NCBI RefSeq assembly: GCF_000426625.1 | Contig: NZ_KE384548.1 | Location: 620,001-684,000, forward strand | Reading direction: 5' to 3' | DNA length: 64,000 bases | DNA from: Psychrilyobacter atlanticus DSM 19335 | Lineage (GTDB): Bacteria > Fusobacteriota > Fusobacteriia > Fusobacteriales > Fusobacteriaceae | Program-made: the position numbers and the translations under genes | The notes under the pieces: generated by a model | Database searches by the model: none | Seen by the model: the letters and a program-made list of their open reading frames with translations, nothing else | Told to the model about the DNA's origin: nothing | Shown: piece by piece, positions 27,026 to 42,592 of the stretch | Layout: each line of letters starts with the position of its first letter | Numbering within the stretch: position 1 is the first letter of the stretch

Positions 27026-28048
27026 TTATTTTTCACAATAAAAACACACTTTTTCCCCTTTGAGATCTATCCACTTTCCTCCTAAATTCTCTATCTGTGA
27101 GATACATTTAAGATTTTCACATTTTTTATCTATTCCATCATATAGAGGTTTAGTGTGATCTTTCATAAGTAAACTCATGATGGCCTGTCTGACGAAAACA
27201 CCATTTTTAGCCTGGGAAAAATAAATGGCATTGGGAGTAGAGTCTAAATTTGTATGGATCTCTCCAACCCTAGGCAGCGGATGGAGAATTTTTAAATCAG
27301 GCTTGGATATTTTTAAAATTTCTTTATCTATTTGATATTTACCGGCACATTTTTTAAAATCTCTGGGATCATCAAATCTTTCCTCTTGTATTCTGGTCAT
27401 ATACAGGATATCTGTATCCCCCATGATAGATTCATAGTTTTCTAAAACCTCATATTCCAAAGAAAGAGAATCTAAGATGTAAGATGGTATCTGCATCTCA
27501 GGAGGGGCTATAAAATAAATTTTATTTCCCCTAAATTTGTCCAGTGCCTTAGCCAGTGAATGAACAGTTCTACCATATTTAAGGTCTCCTACAAATGCAA
27601 CCTCTAAATTATCTAGTCTTCCTTTTTCCTTTTGTATAGTATAGAGATCGAGTAAAGTCTGGGTAGGATGCTGGTTAGCTCCATCACCTGCATTTATTAC
27701 AGGTATATCTAATATTTCGCTGGCTCTTTTGGCTGTTCCCTCATAGGGACTCCTGATTGCCATAATATCTGTATAGAGGCCCATCATGGTAAGGGTATCA
27801 GAGATTGTTTCTCCTTTTTTTAGGGAATTATTCCCTCCTCCATCTAACTCTATTACCTTCCCTCCTAATCTATACATAGCACTGATAAAAGATAATTTAG
27901 TCCGGGTAGATGGTTCAAAAAAAACAGTGGATAAAATTTTATTCTCTAACTCAGAAGGTTTAGGGTCATTTTCCAACTCTCTTGCTTTATCTAAGATATT
28001 TAAGATATCTTTTACTGTTAAATTATTTAATGATAGTATTTCTTTCAA
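27026..28048 (-). CDS. pyrB: Aspartate carbamoyltransferase with a C-terminal zinc-ribbon tail
   Basis: Second step of UMP synthesis: carbamoyl phosphate plus aspartate to carbamoyl aspartate. Carbamoyl-phosphate-binding STRTKLSF and HPTQTLLDLYT and the aspartate-loop region HPLPRVGEI are all present. After the normal catalytic chain (about 305 residues) comes a tail with CENLKCISQ and CFYCEK, the four-cysteine zinc site of the PyrI regulatory chain, but no nucleotide-binding domain of PyrI. It thus looks like PyrB fused to only the zinc half of PyrI. I choose the TTG at 28048 (about 340 residues) because AAGGAGG sits five bases upstream; the frame stays open to 28123 without such a site. Last gene of carA-carB-pyrB. 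Confidence 0.9.
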   Translation of the reverse strand: MKEILSLNNLTVKDILNILDKARELENDPKPSELENKILSTVFFEPSTRTKLSFISAMYRLGGKVIELDGGGNNSLKKGETISDTLTMMGLYTDIMAIRSPYEGTAKRASEILDIPVINAGDGANQHPTQTLLDLYTIQKEKGRLDNLEVAFVGDLKYGRTVHSLAKALDKFRGNKIYFIAPPEMQIPSYILDSLSLEYEVLENYESIMGDTDILYMTRIQEERFDDPRDFKKCAGKYQIDKEILKISKPDLKILHPLPRVGEIHTNLDSTPNAIYFSQAKNGVFVRQAIMSLLMKDHTKPLYDGIDKKCENLKCISQIENLGGKWIDLKGEKVCFYCEK

Positions 28049-28198
28049 ATTTTCCTCCTTATTTTCCTTTCCTTTAATGATTTTTCTAAAGGAACATAAA
28101 TTATATATTATGAAAGAGGTCATTATACAACCTCTTTCAAATTTATTATTAAATTTTATTTTTCCTGCTATAGATAGAATATCGGATAGTGGAGTTGT

Positions 28199-31100
28199 TT
28201 AGATTTTACTTATATCAAAGATATCTAAGTCTCTGGTATCTACATCTTTTTCCATGATATTTAATACTGCATTTAGTGTATCCAGTGAAGTTAGTACTTC
28301 TACACCATATTCTATAGCAGTTCTTCTTATCTTAAACCCATCTCTTTGAGCATCATTTGCTTTTGTAGGAGTGTTGATAAGGAGATCTATTTGTTGAGTC
28401 TTTAATTTATCGATTATATTAGGAGATGCTTCATTTATTTTATTAACAGTCTCACATGCTACACCATTATTATTTAGATATTCAGCAGTCCCACCAGTTC
28501 CAATCATTGTACACCCTTGATTTATAAGTCTTTTAGCCAGGCTTAAAAATTCATCTTTATCGCTTCCTTTTATAGTAGCTAAAACTCTTTTATTCTTAAT
28601 TTCATGGATTCTGTATCCTCCTACAAGGCCCTTGTAGATAGCTTCATCCATATTGTTTCCTATTCCTAATACTTCTCCTGTAGATTTCATCTCAGGTCCT
28701 AATGATACTTCTACACCACCAAGTTTTTCAGTAGAGAATACTGGGACCTTTACTGCTACTAGATCCGGTTTCTTGTATATACCTGTACCGTATGGTAGAT
28801 CTGCTAATTTTTGCCCTAGCATTACTTTTGTTGCCAGTTCGATCATTGGAACACCAGCTACTTTCGAGATGTAAGGTACCGTTCTAGATGATCTAGGGTT
28901 TACTTCTATTATATATAGTTTATTTTCATAAGCTATAAATTGTATATTCATCATTCCTATTATATTTAACTCTTTAGCTAATTTTCTAGTGATATCTAAG
29001 ATCTCTTCTTCTGTTCCTTCATATAGGTTTTGTTGTGGATAAACTGTAATTGAGTCACCAGAATGTATTCCTGCTCTCTCTAAATGTTCCATGATTCCAG
29101 GGATAAGAACGTCTTCACCATCACAGATTGCATCTACTTCGATCTCTACACCATTTAAGTATTTATCTACTAATACTGGATTTTTAGGATCTCTAATGAA
29201 AGAAGCTTCTAAGTAACCTTTTAAGTTTTCCTCTAAGTAACAGATCTCCATCCCTTGTCCGCCCAATACATATGAAGGTCTTACTAATACCGGATATTTT
29301 ACTTTTTCAGCTTCTGCTATACCATCTTCAGTATTCCAAACAGCTCTTCCCTTTGGTCTATTTATATCTAATTTTTCCAATATAGCTTCAAATCTTTCTC
29401 TATCTTCAGCAGCATCTATCATCTCAGCAGAAGTACCGATTATATTGATTCCTAAATCTGCCAGATCATTTGCTAATTTTATAGCAGTCTGCCCACCAAA
29501 TTGTAAGATAACTCCCTCTGGGTTCTCTTTTTCAATGATATTCATTACATCTTCTAATACCAATGGTTCAAAGTATAGTTTATCAGCTGTTGAGAAATCT
29601 GTTGAAACAGTCTCAGGGTTATTGTTTATAATGATTGTCTCTATATCTAAATTTTGTAATGCTTTTACTGTGTGTACTGTACAGTAGTCAAATTCAATTC
29701 CCTGTCCTATTCTGATAGGCCCAGATCCAATAACTATAACTTTTCTTCTGTCTGATATTTCTACTTCATCATGCATGTCATAAGTTGAGTAGTAATAAGA
29801 TGAAGAAGCTTCAAATTCTCCTGCGCAGGTATCTACCATCTTGTATACAGGCATAACGTTTAACTCTTTTCTTTTAGCGACTATATCATCTTCGCTTATT
29901 CCCATAAATTTTGCCATTGCTCTGTCTGAGAAACCTTTCTTCTTCCAGTTTCTAAGATTTTTAGGAGTAAGGTCAGATAATTTAGTTTTCTTTAAAACTT
30001 CTTCTTGATTTACTATCCACTGTAATTTTTCCATGAAGAATGGATCCATTCCGGTAATCTTTTGTAACATAGTCTTTGTATATCCACGTCTCAGCATCTC
30101 AGCTAGATCAAATATTCTTTCATCGTCTGGGCTTACTACTCTCTTCTTTAATTCTTGCATAGATCTAATTGTAGATGCTTTATGTTCTAAACCATATTGT
30201 CCGATCTCTAGTGATCTAACACCTTTTAAAAATGCCGCTTCAAAGTTGTTTCCAATAGCCATGATCTCTCCAGTAGCCATCATCTTTGTACCTAATTTTC
30301 TGTCAGCCTTCTCAAATTTATCAAATGGCCACTTTGGAATCTTTACTACTATATAATCCAGTGCTGGTTCAAAACAAGCATATGTTTTTCCTGTAACTTC
30401 ATTTTTTACTTCATCCAGGGTATATCCTAATGATAATTTTGCTGCTACCCTTGCAATTGGATATCCAGTAGCTTTAGAAGCTAGTGCAGATGATCTAGAT
30501 ACTCTAGGGTTGATCTCAATAATTGCATATTCAAATGAATCAGGGTTAAGAGCGAACTGTACATTACACCCTCCTACAATTCCTATCTCATCTATTATGT
30601 TAAGTGCAGATGTTCTCAACATTTGATATTCTTTGTCAGATAATGTTTGAGATGGTGCTACTACTATACTATCTCCTGTATGAATTCCAACTGGGTCGAT
30701 ATTCTCCATATTACATACTGTAATTCTATTTCCATTTATATCTCTCATTACCTCATATTCTACTTCTTTCCAACCAAGGATCGATTTTTCAACTAATACT
30801 TGTCCTACTCTAGATAAAACCAGTCCTTTTAATAAGATGTCTTCTAATTCTTGAGGATTATTTGCCATCCCTCCTCCAGTACCACCTAATGTGTATGCAG
30901 GTCTTACAATTAATGGATATCCTATTTTTGCAGCGAACTCCAATCCATCTTCTAGGTTCTCAACTATCATACTCTCTATAGTAGGTTCCCCTATCTTATT
31001 CATGGCATCTCTAAATAGGTCTCTGTCTTCTCCCCTTTTAATAGAATCAATAGTTGTTCCCAATACCTTTATATTGTGTTCTGTTAATATTCCACTGTCT

Positions 31101-31405
31101 TCTAATTCTACTGCCATGTTAAGAGCAGTTTGTCCACCCATTCCAACTAAGATTGAATCTGGTTTTTCCTTTATGATTACCTTAGTTACAAATTCCAATG
31201 TAATAGGCTCTATATATATTCTATCAGCGACACTTTTATCGGTCATTATCGTAGCGGGGTTAGAGTTTATTAATACTACTTCTATTCCCTCTTCCTTTAA
31301 TGCTTCACAAGCCTGGGTTCCAGAATAATCAAATTCAGCAGCTTGTCCTATTACAATTGGTCCTGATCCTATTACAAGGGTTTTCTTTATATTTTTATCT
31401 AACAT
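28199..31405 (-). CDS. carB: Carbamoyl-phosphate synthase large subunit
   Basis: About 1068 residues, normal for CarB. It makes carbamoyl phosphate from ammonia (delivered by CarA), bicarbonate and two ATP. Two homologous ATP-grasp halves are visible, each opening with a GSGPI-x-IGQ motif ([19 protein letters not shown] at the start and [17 protein letters not shown] in mid-protein). The C-terminal MGS-like allosteric domain ([20 protein letters not shown]) follows, where UMP or ornithine usually bind. The start is the ATG at 31405 with TGGAGG 7 bases upstream rather than the longer frame at 31420. It lies 92 bases after carA on the same transcript. Confidence 0.95.
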
Positions 31406-31497
31406 TGAGTTAACCTCCATATATTTAAATTAGTAATTACTAATTTGTTTCTAGTATATTATCTTTCTTCTGTATAACCATTAATTGTTTACTCTGT

Positions 31498-32559
31498 CTA
31501 TCCCAGCATTTTAATAAAATCATCGAATACATATTGAGAATCTTCCGGTCCCGGTGCTGCTTCTGGATGATACTGTACCGATGCTATCTTATTCTTGTAG
31601 TCTTTCATCCCCTCTACTGAGTTATCATTTAAGTTTATTTGAGTGATCTCTACACCTTCTGGCATCTTGTCTACCACATACCCATGATTTTGAGATGTGA
31701 TAAAGATCTTATTTTTTTCCAAGTCTTTTACCGGATGGTTAGCTCCTCTATGACCAAACTTTAATTTATTAGTGGAACCTCCTAATGCCCAAGCCAATAG
31801 CTGGTGTCCTAAACATATTCCGATTATAGGAGTTTTTCCAATCATTTTCTTTATTTCGTTTATTACGTCTGTAAGATCAGCGGGATCTCCAGGCCCATTA
31901 GATAAAAATACACCATCTAGGTCATAGGATAAGATCTCCTCAGCAGTTGTATTCCATGGGAATATAGTTAAGTCACAGTTTCTCTTGTGGAATGATCTGA
32001 TGATATTTTGTTTGATACCAAAATCAATCATTCCGATTTTTTTATTTACTTTTTCAGCACCACATGGAGCTTCATAGATCTCTTTTGTACTTACTGTACT
32101 TACTGCGTCTATATTTGAAAAATCATTCATTGTATTTTTGATTTCTTTTTGTGTAAGCTCGTCTACAGTGATGATAGCTTTCATAGATCCGTTATCTCTT
32201 ATGATCTTAGTCAGGTGTCTTGTATCTATACCTTTAAATCCCATTATCTTATGTTGTTTTAGATAACCATCTAATGTCATCTCACATCTAAAGTTGTTTG
32301 GTAATTTAGCAGGTTCTTTTATTACAAATCCTCTTACCTTTGCACCATTACTCTCTAAGTCATCTAGGTTAAGACCATAGTTTCCTATCATTGGATAAGT
32401 CATTACAACTATTTGTCCATAATAAGATGGATCAGTAAGAACTTCTTGATACCCTGTCATAGATGTATTAAACACCAACTCTCCTACAGCTTCCTCTGTG
32501 TAACCAAAAGCTTTTCCTTCAAATACCATTCCATTTTCTAATATCAATTTTGCCTTCAT
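31498..32559 (-). CDS. carA: Carbamoyl-phosphate synthase small subunit (glutaminase)
   Basis: A 353-residue class I amidotransferase that hydrolyses glutamine and channels ammonia to CarB. The N-terminal CarA-specific domain (FNTSMTGYQEVLTDPSYYGQ) is followed by the glutaminase with oxyanion segment LSNGPGDP, nucleophile cysteine in GICLGHQ and catalytic HPE in QYHPEA. First structural gene of the carA-carB-pyrB operon. Its ATG follows TAGGAGGCGTT, almost the same ribosome binding site as the leader frame upstream. An intrinsic terminator and a leader reading frame separate it from the promoter. Confidence 0.95.
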   Translation of the reverse strand: MKAKLILENGMVFEGKAFGYTEEAVGELVFNTSMTGYQEVLTDPSYYGQIVVMTYPMIGNYGLNLDDLESNGAKVRGFVIKEPAKLPNNFRCEMTLDGYLKQHKIMGFKGIDTRHLTKIIRDNGSMKAIITVDELTQKEIKNTMNDFSNIDAVSTVSTKEIYEAPCGAEKVNKKIGMIDFGIKQNIIRSFHKRNCDLTIFPWNTTAEEILSYDLDGVFLSNGPGDPADLTDVINEIKKMIGKTPIIGICLGHQLLAWALGGSTNKLKFGHRGANHPVKDLEKNKIFITSQNHGYVVDKMPEGVEITQINLNDNSVEGMKDYKNKIASVQYHPEAAPGPEDSQYVFDDFIKMLG

Positions 32560-32590
32560 AACGCCTCCTAGGTTCTCATAAGTTTATGCT

Positions 32591-32633
32591 AAAAAAAAAG
32601 AATAATAACTAAAATAGATTAGTCATTATTCTT
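32591..32633 (-). terminator. Attenuator terminator upstream of carA
   Basis: Read on the minus strand: AAGAATAATGACT, a 10-base loop, AGTTATTATTCTT, then nine T. The pairing is complete with one G-U. The terminator lies between the promoter and carA, so the operon is expressed only if it is bypassed. The first base of the leader stop codon (TAA, 32621-32619) is the last base of the ascending arm, so a ribosome at the stop would prevent folding. Confidence 0.85.
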
Positions 32634-32777
32634 TAGAATAAAATTATTATTAAAATTTAAAAACAAAGATACAGCTCCATATGCTATATAGGGAACATCT
32701 TTTAAAAATAAAAATTTGTTAAATTGAAATATATTGTTAAAATTAATTGGTATTACTAATAGTCTATTATTTTTCAA
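32619..32777 (-). CDS. Leader peptide of the carA-carB-pyrB operon
   Basis: A 52-codon frame starting at TTG (32777) with GGAGG eight bases upstream. Peptide beginning MKNNRLLVIP, with the central block KDVPYIAYGAV and ending in KNND. It is rich in Phe, Ile, Leu and Asn because its mRNA is U/A-rich. The block DVPY-x3-GAV recurs in the leader of the other pyrimidine operon (37984-38127), with similar distances to the stop (16 versus 15 codons after the valine). The stop overlaps the attenuator. The likely role is in cis: coupling translation of the leader to transcription of car-pyrB. No family is known to me. Confidence 0.72.
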   Translation of the reverse strand: MKNNRLLVIPINFNNIFQFNKFLFLKDVPYIAYGAVSLFLNFNNNFILKNND

Positions 32778-32807
32778 ATTTAACGCCTCCTAAAATTTTC
32801 TTATATC

Positions 32808-32836
32808 AGAATATCAAAAATAATTGAATGTGTCAA
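32808..32836 (-). promoter_or_regulatory. Promoter of the carA-carB-pyrB operon
   Basis: TTGACA (32831-32836), 17-base spacer, TATTCT (32808-32813) on the minus strand; transcription would start about 25 bases before the leader TTG. The 32560-32919 gap is accounted for by this promoter, the leader frame and the attenuator. Confidence 0.75.
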
Positions 32837-32919
32837 TATTTATTTTTGAATTCCCTCGGATATTGGTGTAACATGATATATAGCCTAAAATAATTTTAAA
32901 TAGCAAAGGAGGAGTAAAG

Positions 32920-33900
32920 ATGAAGAAGATATGTATTTTTTTGTTTATGATTTTAATTTCAGTTTTCAGTTTTTCAGAGTCGGAAAATATTTTTGGTAAA
33001 TTCGCAATTGGAGAAAATGTAGTTGTAAATGATGTTGATGAAGGGGATTTAGTTGTAGCAGGTAGAGAAGTCCTGATAGACAGGAATTTCTCTAAACGTG
33101 TAATTATTGCTGGGGAAAGAATTACAATAAAAAGCAGATCGAAAGAGGTTTATTTAGCAGGGAAATATATTAAAATAGATGGAGGAGTAGAAGAAAATTT
33201 AAATATAATGGCTAAAAGTTTATATATAAATGCTCCTGTAGGTGGAGATGTCAGGATGGTTGTTGAAAATGCAGTTGTCTCAGAAGGAGCAGTTATAAAT
33301 GGTGATATTGAGATAGATGGAAATCTTTTGATATCTAAAGGGGCAGTTGTTAAAGGGAATATTTATTATGATGATCAATTGCCTGTTATAGAAGGTCGTG
33401 TAATGGGAGAACTTGTAAAGAAAACAGATAAAAATTATTCCTATGAAAGACACCTTACTTTTCTTCCATTTAAACTGTTTTCGGTATTTTATTTATTTAT
33501 ACTCACCTATATAATTTTTAAACTAAAAAAAGAGTTAGGAAGGGAAAGACTAGAAAGATATTTAAATAATAAAAGTTTAATTCTATTCAATGGATTTGCA
33601 GGCTTGGTACTTATCCCTGCAGCTGTAATACTACTCTTTATCACAATTTTAGGATTTCCTGTAGGAGTCTTATTGATATTATTCTATTTTATATTGATGT
33701 TCTTGGCTATCCCTATAGCAAATCTAATAATAGCTGCTAAATATTTTGATGAGATAAATTTTCTCAAACTTCTACTAACTAGTTTTATTATAACAATTTT
33801 AATAAATTTACCATTTGTAGGCTGGTTGATAAAATTATTCTTAATCTTACTTGGGTTAGGAAGCATAATAGATAGTTTTAAAAATAAAATCAGATTATAA
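32920..33900 (+). CDS. Bactofilin-like polymer-forming domain with C-terminal membrane region
   Basis: A 326-residue protein with an N-terminal signal peptide (KKICIFLFMILISVFSF). A beta-helical region of short hydrophobic-glycine repeats follows (about 30-165; for example GDVRMVVENAVVSEGAVING), like bactofilins and polymer-forming cytoskeletal proteins. Four or so transmembrane helices come last (about 185-320). The signal peptide places the beta helix outside the cytoplasm, unlike classic bactofilins, so it may be an envelope scaffold; this is inference. The start follows AAAGGAGGAG. It is transcribed alone, divergent from the car operon. Confidence 0.7.
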   Translation: MKKICIFLFMILISVFSFSESENIFGKFAIGENVVVNDVDEGDLVVAGREVLIDRNFSKRVIIAGERITIKSRSKEVYLAGKYIKIDGGVEENLNIMAKSLYINAPVGGDVRMVVENAVVSEGAVINGDIEIDGNLLISKGAVVKGNIYYDDQLPVIEGRVMGELVKKTDKNYSYERHLTFLPFKLFSVFYLFILTYIIFKLKKELGRERLERYLNNKSLILFNGFAGLVLIPAAVILLFITILGFPVGVLLILFYFILMFLAIPIANLIIAAKYFDEINFLKLLLTSFIITILINLPFVGWLIKLFLILLGLGSIIDSFKNKIRL

Positions 33901-33903
33901 TAA

Positions 33904-33940
33904 AAAAGAGGAGAGACGACCCAGAAGGGTCGTCCTCTTT
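33904..33940. terminator. Bidirectional terminator between bactofilin-like and HD-GYP genes
   Basis: Stem AAAGAGGA plus GACGACCC paired with GGGTCGTC plus CTCTTT around an AGAA loop, between convergent genes. Confidence 0.85.
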
Positions 33941-36158
33941 ATTTTATGTGTTCCCTATTGGATTCAAAGATTAGATTAAATTTTTCATTATGTTTTATAA
34001 ATATATTTACAATCTCAGGATCAAAATGTTTTCCGCTTTCCTCTGAAATGATTCCCATAGATTTCTCATGGGTAAACCCGTCTTTGTAGGATCTTTTTTG
34101 CCGGAGTGCATCATAGACATCAGAAAGAGCAACGATTCTTGCTTCTAAAGGAATTTCTTTCCCCTTTAACCCCTCTAAATACCCCATACCATTCCATTTC
34201 TCATGGTGATAAAGTGCTATATTCTCTACCATAAGAGGGAGGTTAGCGTCTTTTATAAGATTATATCCTATCTTTACATGTTCTTTCATAGATTTAAATT
34301 CTTCTTCAGATAACCTGCCTTTTTTCTTTAAAATACCATCATGTACTCCTATCTTCCCTATGTCATGGAGGGAGGCATAGAAACCAATATCTTTAATAAA
34401 GTTTTTGTGACACCTGAGCTTTTCTGCAATTAATCTTGAATATTCATTGACCCTTCTTATATGATTACCGGTGTCTTCATCATTATAGTAATTAGCATTT
34501 TCAAGAGTAGTAACTAGGGATAGAGTGATTTTTTGCAGGGCTACCTTTCTATTTGTAACATTCCTATAGGAAATAAGGGTAATACTCAATATAACTAGGG
34601 AAATAACTAATATAAATATAGAAACCTTATAATCACTGGTAAAACTACTATAGTGAGCATTCCACTTTTTCATCAAAAATTTATTTTCTATATGAAGCTT
34701 AGAGAATATCTTATTTAAAACACTATAAAGTTCAGGGTTGTCTTTACTTACAGCAAAGGAAACCTCATAAATTTTATCGGTAACTCCAGCAATCTTTATA
34801 TCGTTTATTTTGATACCAGAAAGGCGATTTTCAATAGTTTTCATATCTCCTACCAAGAAATCAACTTTACCCTCTCTCAAGAGGTTGAAAGATTCTCCTA
34901 GGGAGGTAGTGTTAATATAGGTTGCACTATTCAGGTGCTCTTTTAAATAACTGATATAATATGCACCTTTAATTACTGCTATAGTAGTATTTTCCAAATC
35001 TGAAATCTCATCTATAAATCCACCTGATTGCCGGTTATAAACACTTAAATTAAAGGAGTAATATGGTTCCGGGAATAAGAATTTTTTTTCTCGTTCAGGG
35101 GTTTTAATTAAAAGAGGGAGGATAAAATCTTTGTGGGTATGGGAGTCCTCATAAATTTTATCTTCCTTCACTATATATTCTACATCTATATTTTCATTTA
35201 ATATGTTTTTTATAGATTTTATATAGTCGATTGTAAGCCCCTTTAGATCACCTTTGGAATCTCTAGAATAGTAAGGGTAATAATTATCATCTTTTAAAAG
35301 GACTAACTGTAATTTTGAAAGGTGGCTTAAAAATTCCCTTTCCTGAGAACTGAAATGGATACTGTTTTTTTTATACTGCAGGAGGTAATGTCCTATAAGT
35401 TGTGATCTATCCTCATCACTATACAGATCTATAAGTTTATTAAAAATATCTTTTAGGGGACTGTATTCTTTTTTTATGGCAAATTTGAGATTGGAATGAA
35501 TATCAGGTAATAAAATATTAAGTTTAATAGTAGTATTTAAGTCGATAAAATTACTATTTTTTTCTATTTCACCTATATATAACAATGACTCATTTTCATT
35601 TAATTTTTTGAACGCTTGCTTTCTATCTTTTACAAAAATAGGCGTTATGTTTAAATAACCGTATTTATCTATAAAATCATCATATAATTTATCTCCCTTT
35701 AAAAAAATGATTTTTCTATCTTTTAAATCTAAGATTTTTTTTATGTCCTGCTGTCCCATAACTGCTGTATTAAAATCATAGATGGGGTTAGAAAAAACAT
35801 AATAATTCTGCAAGTCCTTTTTTTCTAACATATCAAAGATTATTGTTCCTTCTCCCCTTTCTTTGAGTTTAGACAACTCGAAGATCTCTTTGGGAATTAT
35901 ATTTAAGTTAAGACCAAAACTTTTATTCATCCCTTGGGTGATCTTAGGGTAGAGTCCTCTTTGATTTTTTTCAAGATCGTAAAAAAATAAAAAATTGTCA
36001 GAATTTTCTACAAATACGTCTATTTTTTTACCTTCTATTTCCTTTAAAAAAGTTATCTCCTTTTCTGAAAGAGAGATTTTAGATAGATCAATTTCAGATT
36101 TTGAATAAAGATTAGTTCCTAAAAAAAATATAACCAAAAACATTATATATTTATTCAT
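33939..36158 (-). CDS. Two periplasmic solute-binding (SBP_bac_3) domains, membrane helix and HD-GYP phosphodiesterase
   Basis: A 739-residue transmembrane sensor. After a signal peptide, two amino-acid-binding-protein-like domains (about 40-265 and 270-500) would face the periplasm. One helix (about 508-530) and an HD-GYP domain (about 550-735) follow. The metal-binding HD is in SLHDIGKIG, with later ligands in EHVKIG, LYHHEKWNG and SDVYDAL. The GYP element reads GYLEGLKG (Leu for Pro), so c-di-GMP specificity is probable rather than certain. It is likely to couple an extracellular amino acid or similar ligand to cyclic dinucleotide breakdown, the counterpart of the GGDEF protein at 25478-26986. 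Confidence 0.85.
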   Translation of the reverse strand: MNKYIMFLVIFFLGTNLYSKSEIDLSKISLSEKEITFLKEIEGKKIDVFVENSDNFLFFYDLEKNQRGLYPKITQGMNKSFGLNLNIIPKEIFELSKLKERGEGTIIFDMLEKKDLQNYYVFSNPIYDFNTAVMGQQDIKKILDLKDRKIIFLKGDKLYDDFIDKYGYLNITPIFVKDRKQAFKKLNENESLLYIGEIEKNSNFIDLNTTIKLNILLPDIHSNLKFAIKKEYSPLKDIFNKLIDLYSDEDRSQLIGHYLLQYKKNSIHFSSQEREFLSHLSKLQLVLLKDDNYYPYYSRDSKGDLKGLTIDYIKSIKNILNENIDVEYIVKEDKIYEDSHTHKDFILPLLIKTPEREKKFLFPEPYYSFNLSVYNRQSGGFIDEISDLENTTIAVIKGAYYISYLKEHLNSATYINTTSLGESFNLLREGKVDFLVGDMKTIENRLSGIKINDIKIAGVTDKIYEVSFAVSKDNPELYSVLNKIFSKLHIENKFLMKKWNAHYSSFTSDYKVSIFILVISLVILSITLISYRNVTNRKVALQKITLSLVTTLENANYYNDEDTGNHIRRVNEYSRLIAEKLRCHKNFIKDIGFYASLHDIGKIGVHDGILKKKGRLSEEEFKSMKEHVKIGYNLIKDANLPLMVENIALYHHEKWNGMGYLEGLKGKEIPLEARIVALSDVYDALRQKRSYKDGFTHEKSMGIISEESGKHFDPEIVNIFIKHNEKFNLIFESNREHIK

Positions 36159-36223
36159 TTTTCTCCTCCTTTTATTTTTCCTAGTAAATAAAATTTACTA
36201 AGAAATAAAAAATTTCCTAGTTA

Positions 36224-36260
36224 GAATAAAAAAAGGAACCTGAGGTTCCACTTTTTATTC
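36224..36260 (-). terminator. Terminator of the GAF/fRMsr gene
   Basis: GGAACC-TGA-GGTTCC core extended by A/T pairing (GAATAAAAA with TTTTTATTC), just beyond the stop. Confidence 0.75.
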
Positions 36261-36272
36261 TTATAATATATA

Positions 36273-36740
36273 TTATATATTGCTGTTAGCTATTAAAATC
36301 ATAACTAATTTTTCTAAATTAATTTTATCTTCCTCAGAAAATCTATTCAATTTTGGACTGTCTATATCCAATACCCCAATTAATCTATTTTCTTTTATCA
36401 GTGGAATTACAATCTCTGAGTTAGATGCTAAATCACAGGCTATATGACCAGGGAATTTATGTACATCAGGGACTACATATGTAACTTTGTCTCTTGCAGA
36501 ACTTCCGCAGACTCCCTTTCCCAACTCAATTTTAGTAGTAGCTGTAAGACCTTGAAAGGGTCCTAAAATCAATTTCTCATTTTTCCATAAGTAAAACCCT
36601 GCCCAGTTTAGATCCTCAATATTATTAAAGATCAGGGAAGAAATATTGGCACAGTTGGCAATAAAATCGTCTTCAGTTTCAGTTAAATTTTTAGCTAAGT
36701 TTAAAAGGTAGGTATAACTTTTAACGGGATTACTATTCAT
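36273..36740 (-). CDS. GAF-domain free methionine-(R)-sulfoxide reductase
   Basis: A 155-residue single GAF domain matching fRMsr, which reduces free L-methionine-R-sulfoxide in the cytoplasm. Signature segments are LNWAGFYLW, LGPFQGLTA, GKGVCGSSA (Cys78) and DVHKFPGHIACD (Cys102). In the E. coli enzyme three cysteines take part, spaced 10 and 24 residues. Here the spacing 78-102 is kept, but the position ten residues before Cys78 is threonine (Thr68), so one resolving cysteine is missing and recycling may differ. Neighbouring desulfoferrodoxin suggests a shared oxidative-stress theme. Confidence 0.88.
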   Translation of the reverse strand: MNSNPVKSYTYLLNLAKNLTETEDDFIANCANISSLIFNNIEDLNWAGFYLWKNEKLILGPFQGLTATTKIELGKGVCGSSARDKVTYVVPDVHKFPGHIACDLASNSEIVIPLIKENRLIGVLDIDSPKLNRFSEEDKINLEKLVMILIANSNI

Positions 36741-36794
36741 GATGTCTACAACTCCTTAATTTTTAGTTTAAGTGAGTATATCATAATTTATAAA

Positions 36795-36820
36795 AAAAAG
36801 AGAGATATATCTCTCTTTTT
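36795..36820 (-). terminator. Terminator of the YchJ-like gene
   Basis: AAAAAGAGAGATATATCTCTCTTTTT, a self-complementary stem with flanking A/T runs. Confidence 0.65.
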
Positions 36821-36862
36821 CTCTGTATTTACCTTGGGTAAAAAATACAGTAAATGTTCTAT

Positions 36863-37348
36863 TTAGTTTTTCCCACAACATTTTTTATACTTTTTACCTG
36901 ATCCACATGGACATGGGTCATTTCTACCAATTTTAACTTCTTTTTTGATAGTCTTTTGTGTAGATAATGCTGAATCATACATCCATGCTCCATCTATCTT
37001 TTTAAATACTGATCTTTCATGGTGAAACAATGTTTCTCCCTCTTCTAAATAGTGACCTTTAAATTCTACAATACCTTCAGAATCGTCAGCTCCTCCATCT
37101 ACAGTTTCAATTATTTCTAATTTATTCCACTCTGTAGATTCAGACCAGTGTTTGATCTCTTCTTTACTAAGAGTTCCACGTGTTTTAGGATTATGTGTAT
37201 TATAAACATAATCTACTTCTCCTACAACATAAGCTGTATATCTAGATCTCATTGTATCTTCAGCAGTAATTGGTGTTTTCTCACCTAATATATATGGCTT
37301 ACAACATTCTTCATAACTTAATTCTTTTCCACAAGGGCAGTTTTTCAT
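36863..37348 (-). CDS. YchJ-family protein with SEC-C metal-binding motifs
   Basis: A 161-residue protein with a cysteine cluster at each end: [13 protein letters not shown] at the N-terminus and the SEC-C motif [18 protein letters not shown] at the C-terminus (zinc binding, as at the tail of SecA). An NTF2-like YchJ domain lies between them ([31 protein letters not shown]). The biochemical role of the family is unknown. The ATG follows TAGGAGGAAA. Confidence 0.88.
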
Positions 37349-37533
37349 TTATTTTCCTCCTAAATATTATGCATAATTGCTTATAATTATACCATATGTA
37401 GAGTAAATTTCCTAAGAGTTCCTATAGATAGACAGAAGAGCATAAATATTAAAAAAAAATTAAAATTTAATTAGAAAAAAGATGAAAATAGAGTATACTA
37501 GGACAAGGAGACAAAAAAATCAGGGGGGTAAAA

Positions 37534-37911
37534 ATGACTAAGAAATTAGAGGTTTTTAAATGTGAAATATGCGGTAATATTGTAGAGGTAGTTCATACAG
37601 GAGCTGGAGTATTAAGCTGTTGTGGAAAAGAGATGGTTTTACAAATAGAGAACACAAGAGATGCTGCTGTAGAAAAGCACATACCGAAAGTTATTAAATT
37701 AAGTGATGGTTATGAGGTTCAAGTGGGGTCGACTCTTCATCCTATGACAGAAGATCATTATATTGAATGGATAGAATTAATAGTGGATGGTTGTGTATCT
37801 ACTCAATTTTTAAAACCGGGAGATCTGCCAAAAGTTACTTTTAAAGCATGTTATGGAGAAAAAGCAGAGGCTAGAGCTTATTGCAATCTTCATGGACACT
37901 GGAAAAAATAA
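37534..37911 (+). CDS. dfx: Desulfoferrodoxin (superoxide reductase)
   Basis: A 125-residue two-iron protein that reduces superoxide to peroxide in anaerobes. The N-terminal desulforedoxin centre has CEICG and the adjacent pair in LSCCGKEM. The C-terminal superoxide-reductase site has histidines in VEKHIP, STLHPMTEDHYIEW and the cysteine and histidine of CNLHGHW. Length and motif order are those of class I (2Fe) desulfoferrodoxin. The ATG follows GGGGGG. It ends just 9 bases before the promoter of the pyrK leader. Confidence 0.95.
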   Translation: MTKKLEVFKCEICGNIVEVVHTGAGVLSCCGKEMVLQIENTRDAAVEKHIPKVIKLSDGYEVQVGSTLHPMTEDHYIEWIELIVDGCVSTQFLKPGDLPKVTFKACYGEKAEARAYCNLHGHWKK

Positions 37912-37920
37912 AGAAATTCC

Positions 37921-37949
37921 TTGACAGTTCCTTATGGCTGTGGTAATAT
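37921..37949 (+). promoter_or_regulatory. Promoter of the pyrK-pyrD-pyrF-pyrC-pyrE operon
   Basis: TTGACA (37921-37926), exactly 17 bases, TAATAT (37944-37949). Transcription would begin near 37956, about 28 bases before the leader ATG. Confidence 0.8.
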
Positions 37950-37983
37950 CTCTAAAAGATAAAAAAAGAGAGGGAGGAATAAG

Positions 37984-38127
37984 ATGAAATTTTTAACGAT
38001 AAATAATAATTCTATAAATTTCATGGATAAATTTCTTATTTTTTTAACTGATGTTCCCTATGTTATATTTGGAGCAGTCAATTCAATTTTTAATTTTTAT
38101 ATTTATAATAGTGGGAATAAAAACTAA
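37984..38127 (+). CDS. Leader peptide of the pyrK-pyrE operon
   Basis: A 47-codon frame with GGGAGGA upstream of its ATG. Peptide beginning MKFLTINNNS, containing KFLIFLTDVPYVIFGAV and ending NSGNKN. The DVPY-x3-GAV block, the preceding KFL and a following NF match the leader of the car operon. The codons GAT GTT CCC TAT are identical in both, while the alanine and valine codons of GAV differ at the third base. The TAA stop overlaps the attenuator at the same geometry as in the other leader. It is probably a cis-acting attenuation leader. Confidence 0.75.
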   Translation: MKFLTINNNSINFMDKFLIFLTDVPYVIFGAVNSIFNFYIYNSGNKN

Positions 38128-38154
38128 TATTTTAGTTTTTATTCCTTTTTTTTT
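38114..38154 (+). terminator. Attenuator terminator upstream of pyrK
   Basis: GGAATAAAAACT, an 8-base loop, AGTTTTTATTCC (12 perfect pairs), then nine T. The first base of the leader TAA stop is the last base of the ascending arm. It lies between promoter and pyrK, so it gates the operon. Confidence 0.88.
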
Positions 38155-38186
38155 AAAATTAATATGAGAGTATCTAGGAGGAATAT

Positions 38187-38984
38187 ATGTTTTTAGAAGA
38201 TGTTAAGGTAATAGAGAATATACAAATAGCAGATAATTATTATTTAATGAGGGTAGAAGGAACAAAAATACCTCAACATTCTAAACCAGGTCAGTTTTTT
38301 ATGCTCCAATGCAAAGACAACTCAAAAGTTTTAAGAAGACCGATAAGTTTACATAATGTAGATGGAAATATTTTAGAGTTTTACTATGAAGCTTTGGGAA
38401 AAGGAACTAAAGAATTTACTAGATTATCCATAGGTGAAACTATAAATATCCAAGGACCTTTAGGAAATGGTTATGATACAGATCTTAAGGGAAAAAATAT
38501 AGTAGTAATCGGTGGAGGAATGGGGATGGCTCCAATCAAATATCTCATTAAAGATTTGAAAGATAACAATGATATCACCTTTATCGGTGGAGGAAGAAAT
38601 GCAGGAGCTGTAAAAATAATAGAAAAATTCGATTTTAAAAATATTCAACTAAAGGTAGCTACCGATGACGGTAGTGTAGGAATAAAAGGAAACACTGTAG
38701 ATATACTAAAGAAAATACTAAAAGATGAGAATAAAAATATAGACATAATCTATACATGCGGACCACATCCTATGATGGAGGCAGTGGCAAAAGTAGCACA
38801 GGAAAATAATATAAGATGCCAAATATCTTTAGAAGAAAGGATGGCATGTGGAATAAAAGCCTGTGTAGGATGTTCCATATTGACTAAAAAAGGAATGAAA
38901 AAAGTTTGTTACGATGGGCCGGTATTTGAAAGTACAGATATAGTAGACGTAGATGTGGTAGATCCAAATGGAGGATGTAAATAA
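38187..38984 (+). CDS. pyrK: Dihydroorotate dehydrogenase electron-transfer subunit
   Basis: A 265-residue iron-sulfur flavoprotein that passes electrons from dihydroorotate oxidation (via PyrD) to NAD+. The FAD-binding segment RRPISLHN, nucleotide-binding GGGMGMAPIKYL and a C-terminal [2Fe-2S] site with CGIKACVGC and a later cysteine in KVCYDGP are visible. The start has TAGGAGG upstream, 32 bases after the attenuator T run. Its stop and the pyrD start overlap by one base. Confidence 0.93.
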   Translation: MFLEDVKVIENIQIADNYYLMRVEGTKIPQHSKPGQFFMLQCKDNSKVLRRPISLHNVDGNILEFYYEALGKGTKEFTRLSIGETINIQGPLGNGYDTDLKGKNIVVIGGGMGMAPIKYLIKDLKDNNDITFIGGGRNAGAVKIIEKFDFKNIQLKVATDDGSVGIKGNTVDILKKILKDENKNIDIIYTCGPHPMMEAVAKVAQENNIRCQISLEERMACGIKACVGCSILTKKGMKKVCYDGPVFESTDIVDVDVVDPNGGCK

Positions 38985-39952
38985 TGAGTAATAGATTAAA
39001 TATAAGTTTTTTAGGAAAGAAATTAAATAACCCTATAATGACAGCATCAGGATGTTTTGGGTATGGACTGGAATATAAAGATTATTTTAATCCCAATGAA
39101 TTAGGAGCTGCTGTATTAAAAGGAATTACTATGGAACCTAGAAATGGAAATCCCGGTACCAGAATTGCTGAAACACCATCTGGTATGTTAAATTCAGTTG
39201 GATTGGAAAACCCAGGTATTGAAGAATTTAAAAAGATAATCCCGTCTATAAAAAAAGAGCTTAATATTCCCCTGGTAGCAAATATAAATGGGAAGATTTT
39301 GGAAGAATACATAGCAATCGCTAAAGAAGTTGAACAAATAGAAGAGATAGAGATGGTAGAACTAAATATTTCTTGCCCCAATGTTAAGGATGGGGGGATG
39401 GCCTTTGGAGCTAATCCAGAGATGGCAAGATTAGTAACCCGTGAGGTAAGAAAAGTATTAAGTAAACCTATGATTGTAAAATTATCCCCAAATGTAACTA
39501 ATATAGTAGAGATTGCAAAAATAGTAGAGGAAGAGGGAGCAAATGGTGTAGCTCTTATCAACACACTATTAGGAATGGCAGTAGATATAAGAAAAAGAAA
39601 ACCAATTTTAGGAAATATAATGGGTGGATTATCAGGGCCTGCAGTAAAACCAGTAGCACTCCGAATGATATACCAGGTTTCTCAGGCAGTATCTATCCCG
39701 GTTCTTGGAATGGGAGGGATATCTTCTACAGAGGATGCAATTGAATTTATTATGGTAGGAGCCAGTGCTATATCATTAGGAACAGGGATGTTTGCTAACC
39801 CGACACTACCGATAGAGATAAAAAAAGGATTAGAAAAATACTGTATAGAAAATAACATAGATAATATCAGTGAAATTGTAGGAGCGGCCCATCCTGATGG
39901 AGGAGCAGCTTATAGAAGTAGACTAGGAGGGAATAATGAAATTAAAGGCTAA
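38984..39952 (+). CDS. pyrD: Dihydroorotate dehydrogenase, NAD-dependent catalytic subunit (class 1B)
   Basis: A 322-residue FMN TIM barrel converting dihydroorotate to orotate with PyrK as partner. The active-site cysteine is in ELNISCPNV, the substrate loop in NSVGLENPG, and the FMN phosphate site in GMGGISS and SLGTGMF. The pyrK neighbour confirms the class 1B heterotetramer rather than the quinone-linked enzyme. It overlaps pyrF by 17 bases. Confidence 0.94.
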   Translation: MSNRLNISFLGKKLNNPIMTASGCFGYGLEYKDYFNPNELGAAVLKGITMEPRNGNPGTRIAETPSGMLNSVGLENPGIEEFKKIIPSIKKELNIPLVANINGKILEEYIAIAKEVEQIEEIEMVELNISCPNVKDGGMAFGANPEMARLVTREVRKVLSKPMIVKLSPNVTNIVEIAKIVEEEGANGVALINTLLGMAVDIRKRKPILGNIMGGLSGPAVKPVALRMIYQVSQAVSIPVLGMGGISSTEDAIEFIMVGASAISLGTGMFANPTLPIEIKKGLEKYCIENNIDNISEIVGAAHPDGGAAYRSRLGGNNEIKG

Positions 39953-40655
39953 AGATAGATTAATAGTAGCATTAGATTATAAAACGTTGGATGAGGTAAA
40001 GGATATAGTAAATGAAATTGGAGATGCTGTATCTACATATAAGGTAGGTTTAGAATTATTCTTAAATACTCGTGGAGAAGCGGTAGATTATCTTCATAGT
40101 ATAGATAAAAAAGTATTTTTAGATCTGAAGTTTCATGATATCCCAAATACAACAACGATGGCATCGATGTTTGCAAATAAACAAGAGGTATTTATGTTTA
40201 ATGTCCATGCAGGTGGAGGGCCTACTATGATGAAGTCCGTTGCAGATATGCTGAAAGAAAATAATTCTGACTCAATAGCAATAGCAGTGACTATATTGAC
40301 ATCATTTACAGAGGAAGAGTCAGCATCACATTTTAAAAGTAATTTAAATATCAGTGAATTAGCTAATCACTGGGCTGAAGAAACTAAGGAATCAGGATTA
40401 CATGGAGTAGTGTGTTCTCCCTTGGAAGCCAAGAAGATAAAGGAACTTTGTGGTGAAAACTTCTATACAATCTGTCCGGGAGTGAGACCACTATGGGCAG
40501 CTTCTAATGACCAAAAAAGAATTATGACTCCTAAGATGGCTGTTGAAAATGGTGCTGATTTCTTAGTAGTAGGAAGACCAATAACTAAATCAGAGAATCC
40601 AGTCCATGCAGCTAAATTAATATTAGAAGAAATCCAGGAAGGGTTAAATAATTAA
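39936..40655 (+). CDS. pyrF: Orotidine-5'-phosphate decarboxylase
   Basis: A 239-residue TIM barrel performing the last step to UMP. It has the catalytic K/D cluster DLKFHDIPNT, the phosphate-binding GVRPLWAASNDQKR region and VVGRPITKS. The start lies inside pyrD, next to an AGGAGGG site, indicating coupled translation. Confidence 0.94.
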   Translation: MKLKAKDRLIVALDYKTLDEVKDIVNEIGDAVSTYKVGLELFLNTRGEAVDYLHSIDKKVFLDLKFHDIPNTTTMASMFANKQEVFMFNVHAGGGPTMMKSVADMLKENNSDSIAIAVTILTSFTEEESASHFKSNLNISELANHWAEETKESGLHGVVCSPLEAKKIKELCGENFYTICPGVRPLWAASNDQKRIMTPKMAVENGADFLVVGRPITKSENPVHAAKLILEEIQEGLNN

Positions 40656-40722
40656 TTTTTAAGAAATTTAGACTTTTAGATTTAAAATTAAAGTAGCTCA
40701 AAAGAACGGGGAGGAGTTAAAT

Positions 40723-41976
40723 TTGTTAATAAAAAATGCCAGAATAAATACTATAGACAATGAATATGAGATAAAAGATATCTATATAAAAGATGGTAAG
40801 ATTGCTGAAATAGGGTCTGATGTCAACAGTTTAAATATAATTAGAGAGACATTTTTATCCTCAGATGAAAATATAAAAAAATTAGAAATTATAGATTTAA
40901 AGGGAAAGAAATATCTTATCCCGGGAGTTATAGACCCTCATGTACATATGAGAGATCCGGGACTGACTCATAAAGAAGATTTATATACAGGGTCAAGAGC
41001 GTGTGCCAAAGGTGGGATTACCACTTTTATAGATATGCCAAATACAATACCTACAACTACAAATTTGAGTGCACTTCAAGATAAAAAAGATCTGGCTTCA
41101 ATTAAATCACTTGTAAACTATGGATTTCATTTTGGAGGTACCAGTACAGACAACAGTGATATTATCCCTAGTGAAGGAGTAGCTTCTACCAAAGTCTTTA
41201 TGAATATATCTACAGGAAAGATGTTAGTAGAAAAAGATGAAGTTTTAAAAAATATATTTTTAAAATCAAAAATGGTATCTGTTCATGCTGAAGGAGAGAT
41301 GGTAGAAAAAGCCATTACCTATAATGAAAAATATGGAAAAAAACTATACCTTTGTCATATATCAAATGAAAAAGAGTTGGATATTATCAGGAAAAACAGG
41401 GAAATCGCTACAAAGAAAATATATACAGAGGTAACTCCACACCATCTTTTCCTCAGTGAAAATGATATAAAGGGAAAAAATGAAATGTTATTCAGAATGA
41501 AACCGGAATTAAAAACAAACGATGATATAGAAGCTTTATGGAAAGCTATAAATGATGGAACTATTGACACAATCGGTACAGATCATGCACCTCACCTTCT
41601 TTCAGAGAAGTTAGAAAAGGTAACATTTGGAATCCCGGGAGTGGAAAACTCATTACCGTTGATGTTAGATGCTGTATCTAAAGAAAAGATCACTTTATCT
41701 AAATTGATAGAACTTATGTCTAAAAACCCAAGTAAAATATTTGGTATAAAGGACAGAGGAGAAATTAAAGAAGGTTACTATGGGGATCTGGTAGTAGTAG
41801 ACCTAGAAAAGAAATTTACCTTAGAAAATAAAACTACATTATCAAAATGCGGATGGACTCCATTTGATGGATATACAGGATTTGGTAAAATTGAAACTAC
41901 GATAGTTAATGGAACAATAGTATATAATAAAAATCAAATAATTGAGAATACAGGGAGTGAGATTGAATATGAGTAA
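40723..41976 (+). CDS. pyrC: Dihydroorotase
   Basis: A 417-residue amidohydrolase closing carbamoyl aspartate to dihydroorotate. Metal ligands are in DPHVHMRDPG, HAEGE, CHISNE and DHAPH. It is the longer type I form with a composite beta-sandwich. The start is TTG, with GGGGAGGAG seven or more bases upstream; no better ATG is near. It overlaps pyrE by 8 bases. Confidence 0.94.
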   Translation: MLIKNARINTIDNEYEIKDIYIKDGKIAEIGSDVNSLNIIRETFLSSDENIKKLEIIDLKGKKYLIPGVIDPHVHMRDPGLTHKEDLYTGSRACAKGGITTFIDMPNTIPTTTNLSALQDKKDLASIKSLVNYGFHFGGTSTDNSDIIPSEGVASTKVFMNISTGKMLVEKDEVLKNIFLKSKMVSVHAEGEMVEKAITYNEKYGKKLYLCHISNEKELDIIRKNREIATKKIYTEVTPHHLFLSENDIKGKNEMLFRMKPELKTNDDIEALWKAINDGTIDTIGTDHAPHLLSEKLEKVTFGIPGVENSLPLMLDAVSKEKITLSKLIELMSKNPSKIFGIKDRGEIKEGYYGDLVVVDLEKKFTLENKTTLSKCGWTPFDGYTGFGKIETTIVNGTIVYNKNQIIENTGSEIEYE

Positions 41977-42592
41977 TGCAAAAAAAGTAGCTAGAGCACT
42001 ATTAAAAGTAGAAGCGGTGAGATTAAACGTAGCAGAGCCATTTACATTTGTATCAGGGATAAAATCTCCTATATACTGTGACAATAGAAAAGTTATTGGT
42101 TTCCCAGAGGAAAGAACGGATATAGTAGATGCTTTTATAGAGGCTTTAAAAGATAAAGACTTTGATATCCTAGCAGGAACTGCAACAGCAGGAATTCCAT
42201 GGGCAGCATTTATCGCAGAAAAGATGAATAAACCAATGGCTTATATCAGATCTAAACCCAAAGCTCATGGAGCAGGAAAACAAATAGAAGGAGCCGATGT
42301 AGAAGGTAAAAAAATAATTGTAATAGAAGATCTTATCTCTACTGGAGGAAGTTGTATTTCGGCACTTGAAGCCGCAAGGAGAGAGGGAGCTAAAGATGTA
42401 GAAGTTATGGCTATATTCTCATATGAGTTTAAAAAGGCATATGACAGATTTGAAGAAGCTGACTGTAAATGGGAAACTCTTTCTGGATTTCCTGATTTAA
42501 TAGAATTAGCAGTTGAAGAAAATTATCTTTCTTCTAAAGATGCAGAAGAAGCCAGCCAATGGAATAAATCTCCAAATACTTGGAAAAAATAA
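41969..42592 (+). CDS. pyrE: Orotate phosphoribosyltransferase
   Basis: A 207-residue enzyme that couples orotate to PRPP. The PRPP-binding loop is VIEDLISTGGS, and the family-typical SPIYCDNRK and GTATAGIPWA are present. The ATG at 41969 lies inside the end of pyrC with a GGGAG site, preferred over the upstream in-frame 41942. Last gene of the operon; with carA, carB and pyrB it completes the six-step UMP pathway in this window. Confidence 0.94.
   Translation: MSNAKKVARALLKVEAVRLNVAEPFTFVSGIKSPIYCDNRKVIGFPEERTDIVDAFIEALKDKDFDILAGTATAGIPWAAFIAEKMNKPMAYIRSKPKAHGAGKQIEGADVEGKKIIVIEDLISTGGSCISALEAARREGAKDVEVMAIFSYEFKKAYDRFEEADCKWETLSGFPDLIELAVEENYLSSKDAEEASQWNKSPNTWKK

Follow-up and report, generated by a model that had tools for sequence, protein, structure and literature searches.

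Translated leaders ending inside intrinsic terminators precede both pyrimidine operons of Psychrilyobacter and probably form pyrBI-type attenuators

The window (the whole stretch of 64,000 nucleotides of Psychrilyobacter atlanticus DSM 19335 that was analysed) contains two operons encoding pyrimidine synthesis enzymes (NCBIfam), pyrK-pyrD-pyrF-pyrC-pyrE on the forward strand (38187–42592) and carA-carB-pyrB on the reverse strand (27026–32559). Each is preceded by a leader reading frame with a Shine-Dalgarno sequence and a promoter-like sequence. The pyrK leader (37984–38127, forward strand) has 47 codons plus a stop, starts at an ATG preceded by GAGGGAGGAA and encodes the peptide MKFLTINNNSINFMDKFLIFLTDVPYVIFGAVNSIFNFYIYNSGNKN; a scan placed TTGACA-17-TAATAT upstream of it (37921–37949, forward strand; 10/12 matches, the second hexamer being preceded by TG). 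The carA leader (32777–32619, reverse strand) has 52 codons plus a stop, starts at a TTG preceded by AGGAGG and encodes (M)KNNRLLVIPINFNNIFQFNKFLFLKDVPYIAYGAVSLFLNFNNNFILKNND, and the scan placed TTGACA-17-TATTCT upstream of it (32808–32836, reverse strand). The leader lengths of 47 and 52 residues proposed in an initial annotation of this DNA were thus borne out, with a Shine-Dalgarno sequence before each, as were the 15 and 16 codons that it counted from the valine to the stop. All eight Psychrilyobacter genomes (Fusobacteriaceae) have both leaders, each lying with its ribosome-binding site between the promoter and the first gene, and the frame and start codon of each, including the TTG of the carA leader, are kept in 8/8. 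This conservation indicates that the frames are translated.

The arrangement of pyrB varies in the family. In Psychrilyobacter (window 27026–42592) it is joined to carAB, so that the second operon begins with pyrK; pyrB precedes pyrK in most other Fusobacteriaceae genera examined. At its C terminus the PyrB of the window (27026–28123, reverse strand) has a short tail rich in Cys, CENLKC...CFYC, which weakly matches the PyrI metal-binding domain (E 0.0084, under the Pfam cut-off); such a tail is also present in other genera.

Both leader frames end within an intrinsic terminator. That of the pyrK leader (38113–38154, forward strand) has a 15 bp stem and a U-tract, and the leader stop TAA lies inside its 5′ arm, 15 nt into the 34-nt stem-loop. 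That of the carA leader (32598–32633, reverse strand) also holds the TAA in its 5′ arm. In all 16 Psychrilyobacter leaders the TAA falls 14–15 nt into a stem-loop of 32–36 nt, the end of which is 32–41 nt from the start codon of the structural gene. The initial annotation had placed the leader frame correctly, but the terminator with the stop in its 5′ arm was absent from it. The RNA 5′ of the terminator stem is 41–51% U in the Psychrilyobacter leaders (about 45%), and the U fraction reaches 0.50 over the 70 nt 5′ of the stem in the pyrK leader; the coding-sequence mean is 28% (2896 70-nt windows of the coding sequence of the window). The U-rich stretch of the pyrK leader that runs from a conserved core to the terminator (38087–38112, forward strand) is presumed to be a region of UTP-sensitive RNA polymerase pausing. 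U-rich short frames are easier to obtain in AT-rich genomes, and this counts against reading the leaders as attenuators.

The two leader peptides share the pattern FLxDVPY-x3-G. Its core codons lie at 38050–38073 (forward strand; GATGTTCCCTAT...GGA) in the pyrK leader and at 32676–32699 (reverse strand) in the carA leader. The similarity of the two peptides is beyond chance, since their ungapped BLOSUM62 score of 65 was reached by 0/5000 shuffles, and leaders from other genera scored 46–48 at best. It rests on the DVPYxxxG core, because once this is masked the remaining similarity is ordinary (583/3000 shuffles equally good). DVPY, with G at +7, occurs in 16/16 leaders (eight genomes, both operons). 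The initial annotation had described the shared motif as DVPY-x3-GAV; DVPY and the G stand, but the GAV does not, positions +8 and +9 giving seven variants (GAV, GAI, GVI, GSL, GTL, GTA and GAT). Neither did the motif extend to related genera, where that annotation had proposed to look for it: a strict-pattern search of 98 genomes of the class found a DVPY leader in no genus but Psychrilyobacter. A leader-alignment scan of genome contigs confirmed no relative; it also missed the DVPY leaders of five Psychrilyobacter records (L111–L115) and is therefore not evidence of absence elsewhere. Within the genus, the matches listed contained no zero-mismatch copies of the block beyond those at carA and pyrK, and matches with two mismatches were just moderately above control. 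The leader peptides had no match in Pfam or NCBIfam, and no such leader was found in the stretches read upstream of uracil permease genes. The DVPY block is real, and it is genus-specific.

We examined whether the block is constrained as RNA or as peptide. Pooled over all genome pairs, synonymous differences were 0.48 in the carA gene and 0.51 in the pyrK gene; they were 0.22 (carA leader) and 0.08 (pyrK leader) in leader codons 0–9, and 0.16 and 0.075, respectively, in leader codons 10–23. Gene windows of equal length were as conserved as the core in 2/341 cases for carA and 0/181 for pyrK, and as conserved as the downstream stretch in 0/337 and 0/177. Non-synonymous differences were not much rarer than synonymous ones in the leader stretches; the carA gene had 0.031 versus 0.484. 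The core valine is encoded by GTT (26% of valine codons) in 16/16 leaders and the proline by the rare CCC (9% of proline codons) in 14/16, and the 12-nt block GATGTTCCYTAT is almost invariant, including bases outside the stem of the possible hairpin considered below. Because synonymous sites are unusually conserved and GTT and CCC are used so consistently, the sequence is under constraint as nucleic acid (RNA or DNA), and these patterns point to selection on the DVPY block that is at least partly at the RNA level. The core peptide may be under an additional constraint, since its D, V, P, Y and G never change and the sole two codon changes are synonymous (CCC to CCT). The comparison of synonymous with non-synonymous change proposed in the initial annotation thus gave a divided answer: synonymous sites are constrained (0.08–0.22 versus about 0.5), as expected of conservation at the nucleotide level without codon structure, but the five core residues are invariant too. 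In every genome D lies 26 residues from the stop in the carA leader and 25 in the pyrK leader. The residues at the stop, in the ends ILKNND and NSGNKN, follow the sequence of the terminator stem and differ between the leaders.

A hairpin over DVPY is plausible. GUUCC could pair with GGAGC at 38053–38075 (forward strand) in the pyrK core, where a U-run follows after 12 nt, and at 32674–32696 (reverse strand) in the carA core. In general form the element is GUUCC-13-GGARC with a weak stem of 5–6 bp, its pairing is kept in 94% of the cells compared (three one-sided wobble-type variants, no double-sided changes), and a U-run starts 11–12 nt after it in 13/16 leaders. Between 4 and 76% of synonymous recodings were as stable; the energy is unexceptional, and we therefore treat the hairpin as possible only. 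It resembles the trp and his leader pause hairpins of E. coli in being a leader-frame hairpin with a presumed pause 11–12 nt later, but differs from them in its stem of 5–6 bp and in a stability within that of chance recoding. The recoding comparison does not establish it as a pause element. In one other genus (g9) a strong but unrelated hairpin occupies this leader position, and several genera have no upstream hairpin.

We analysed the same architecture across the class by extracting carA, together with the sequence upstream of it, from those genomes that carry the gene. Among 15 genera tested with a pyrimidine-type carA (MK[AG]KLILENG), a leader frame and terminator precede the gene in 13, namely 12 genera of Fusobacteriaceae and Sebaldella; none was detected in g13 or g20, which also have the pyrimidine-type carA. 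These leaders have a Shine-Dalgarno sequence and about 32–71 codons, and end in or beside the terminator. Their peptides are unrelated between genera; what recurs is the U-richness (genus means of 0.39–0.60 over the 70 nt before the terminator, 13 genera) and the position of the stop, which in the other genera lies mostly −7 to +51 relative to the start of the stem. In two Cetobacterium MAGs of one genus (L118, L122) the frame crosses the terminator and stops 9–10 nt before carA. No U-rich leader was found before carA genes of the second type (MYGALYLEDG). Of 22 genomes in which pyrB leads the second unit, 17 yielded a leader frame, and at four more of the 22 pyrB loci a terminator was visible, the extracted locus ending before a frame could start.

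Several further leaders were observed in this survey. Three genomes of one genus (G026, G027 and G029; g5) have two pyrimidine-type carA copies each, every copy with its own leader and terminator. Many Clostridium carA genes (L129–L156 and others) follow a conserved leader frame of another kind, for example MLYLYSQNNCIAMSVRAFSNTDIKYIRIVGREL, whose final codons fall within the 5′ arm of a long hairpin resembling a terminator; a loose filter matched 26/64 loci, and this may be another attenuator with the same logic. A uracil/xanthine permease at two loci (L220, L222) has, about 330 nt upstream, a conserved, structured-looking leader followed by a terminator-like hairpin, a possible purine-type riboswitch.

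PyrR (NF003549) was absent from 8/8 Psychrilyobacter genomes, and within Fusobacteriaceae it was present only in G016–G018, of one genus (g4). In G016, the sole PyrR genome with its carA upstream region read, neither a terminator nor a leader was found before carA, which suggests an exchange of control systems. However, Leptotrichiaceae and others have neither PyrR nor a recognised leader, so PyrR absence alone predicts little. Rfam searches, at the gathering threshold and to E 1, gave no relevant family and no PyrR-binding RNA motif. As in PyrR-dependent attenuation of Bacillus, a leader terminator would attenuate pyr operons here; unlike in that system, the leaders are translated, and there is no PyrR gene or match to a PyrR-binding RNA.

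Taken as a whole, the anatomy argues that both pyrimidine operons probably each have a transcription attenuator that depends on the ribosome, like that of E. coli pyrBI (pyrL). Attenuation of this type is known from enteric bacteria. The PyrL leader has 44 codons, and the E. coli frame continues through the terminator to stop before the gene. Like pyrBI of E. coli and Salmonella, the operons described here have a translated leader of similar size (47–52 versus 44 codons), a U-rich transcript, an intrinsic terminator before the pyrimidine genes and a frame that reaches it. The Cetobacterium MAG genus matches pyrL further, its frame passing through the terminator to stop about 10 nt before the gene; in most genera here the stop is instead inside the 5′ arm, whereas that of pyrL is beyond the terminator. 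Unlike the enteric system, this one lies in another phylum, has the attenuator on two operons of one genome and, in Psychrilyobacter, has a 12-nt block common to both leaders. In E. coli pyrL, with ample UTP the polymerase runs through and terminates, and with little UTP it pauses where the template calls for U, and the ribosome coupled to it keeps the terminator from forming (PMC10135430, PMC5021804). The pyrL transcript is reported to be 49% U (PMC10135430), and its pause is reported to be independent of NusA or a hairpin (PMC9291695).

On this model, the leader frame would be translated directly behind RNA polymerase. With ample UTP the polymerase would move fast over the U-rich leader and the ribosome would lag, letting the terminator hairpin form before the structural genes. 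With low UTP the polymerase would slow in the U-rich stretch and the ribosome would catch up; standing at the stop codon in the 5′ arm, it would block the hairpin, and carAB-pyrB and pyrKDFCE would be transcribed. The DVPY-x3-G block would be a genus-specific stretch of conserved RNA located some 50 nt before the terminator; it may form a weak pause hairpin that gives the ribosome time to close the gap. As far as the sequence can tell, every part of the E. coli mechanism is supplied at both operons; UTP sensing, polymerase pausing, ribosome coupling and the role of the hairpin are what we infer. The initial annotation had proposed a dedicated pyrimidine-control leader that coordinates the two halves of the pathway, perhaps acting through a nascent peptide. 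The presence of a leader before each operon in all genomes of the genus agrees with this, but the peptide part is weakened. Its further statement of knowing no described equivalent is not supported, since the E. coli pyrBI (pyrL) attenuator has this anatomy. The open literature searched yielded no paper on attenuation of pyr genes in fusobacteria.

The alternatives mostly concern what the block does. TnaC is a nascent-peptide attenuator that responds to tryptophan, and the leader peptides could act similarly, with DVPY in the exit tunnel 25–26 residues upstream when the ribosome is at the stop and with release sensitive to pyrimidines. A ribosome stalled at DVPY itself would be 51–54 nt upstream of the terminator stem, too far to cover it, and DVPY could therefore act only from the exit tunnel. 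The invariance of DVPY and G (16/16, both codon changes synonymous), the fixed D-to-stop distances (26 and 25) and the block being the sole feature common to both operons would suit such a mechanism; TnaC likewise has a conserved residue block in the tunnel. We nevertheless consider it unlikely, and the evidence leans against a regulatory nascent peptide, because the synonymous sites of the block are constrained like its amino acids (pS 0.08–0.22 versus 0.48–0.51 in the genes; GTT in 16/16, rare CCC in 14/16), GAV varies, the stop-adjacent residues differ between the leaders, and sister genera with the same architecture have unrelated peptides without DVPY. In all these respects, conserved synonymous sites, unconserved stop-adjacent residues and no conserved-peptide homologue in other genera, the leaders are unlike TnaC and other nascent-peptide attenuators. 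The specific version in which DVPYxxxG stalls the ribosome at the stop codon of each leader until release is promoted by a pyrimidine nucleotide is quite unlikely; if true, the leader peptide would be a nascent-peptide sensor of pyrimidines.

Other accounts place the function of the block in nucleic acid or give it none. Pairing of the core GUUCCC with GGGAAU in the terminator 5′ arm, the ribosome position picking the fold, appeared in the minimum-energy fold of 6/8 pyrK leaders (leader ending before the terminator 3′ arm) but in 0/8 carA leaders, where another local hairpin, UUAUUC-UAAA-GAAUAA, was found. Such an antiterminator is therefore not the shared feature; as a shared fold it was rejected, and as a switch it is very improbable. 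That GATGTTCCYTAT is almost invariant over 12 nt, bases outside the stem included, would fit a site bound, as RNA or DNA, by an unnamed pyrimidine regulator, but the block sits within a translated frame, ungapped in codon register, and it matches no known family and has no candidate protein, making this reading distinctly doubtful. The genus-specific block could also be a chance or historical similarity, one leader having been copied onto or converted by that of the other operon without drift yet, and the leaders of one genome (G058) do share more flank, AAATCTTC...GTTAT. This too is improbable, given that both leader families carry the block in 8/8 species despite about 50–70% synonymous-site difference in the genes, while the remaining leader sequence has diverged.

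If the pyrBI-type reading is true, this form of attenuation is the rule throughout a family of a second phylum, with each pyrimidine unit under its own attenuator and PyrR replaced. The unrelated leader peptides on one architecture would then be a natural experiment on what an attenuator requires, which in that case would be RNA rich in U and a stop codon within the terminator, and no given peptide. The Psychrilyobacter block turns the question of RNA element versus peptide into one testable by synonymous recoding.
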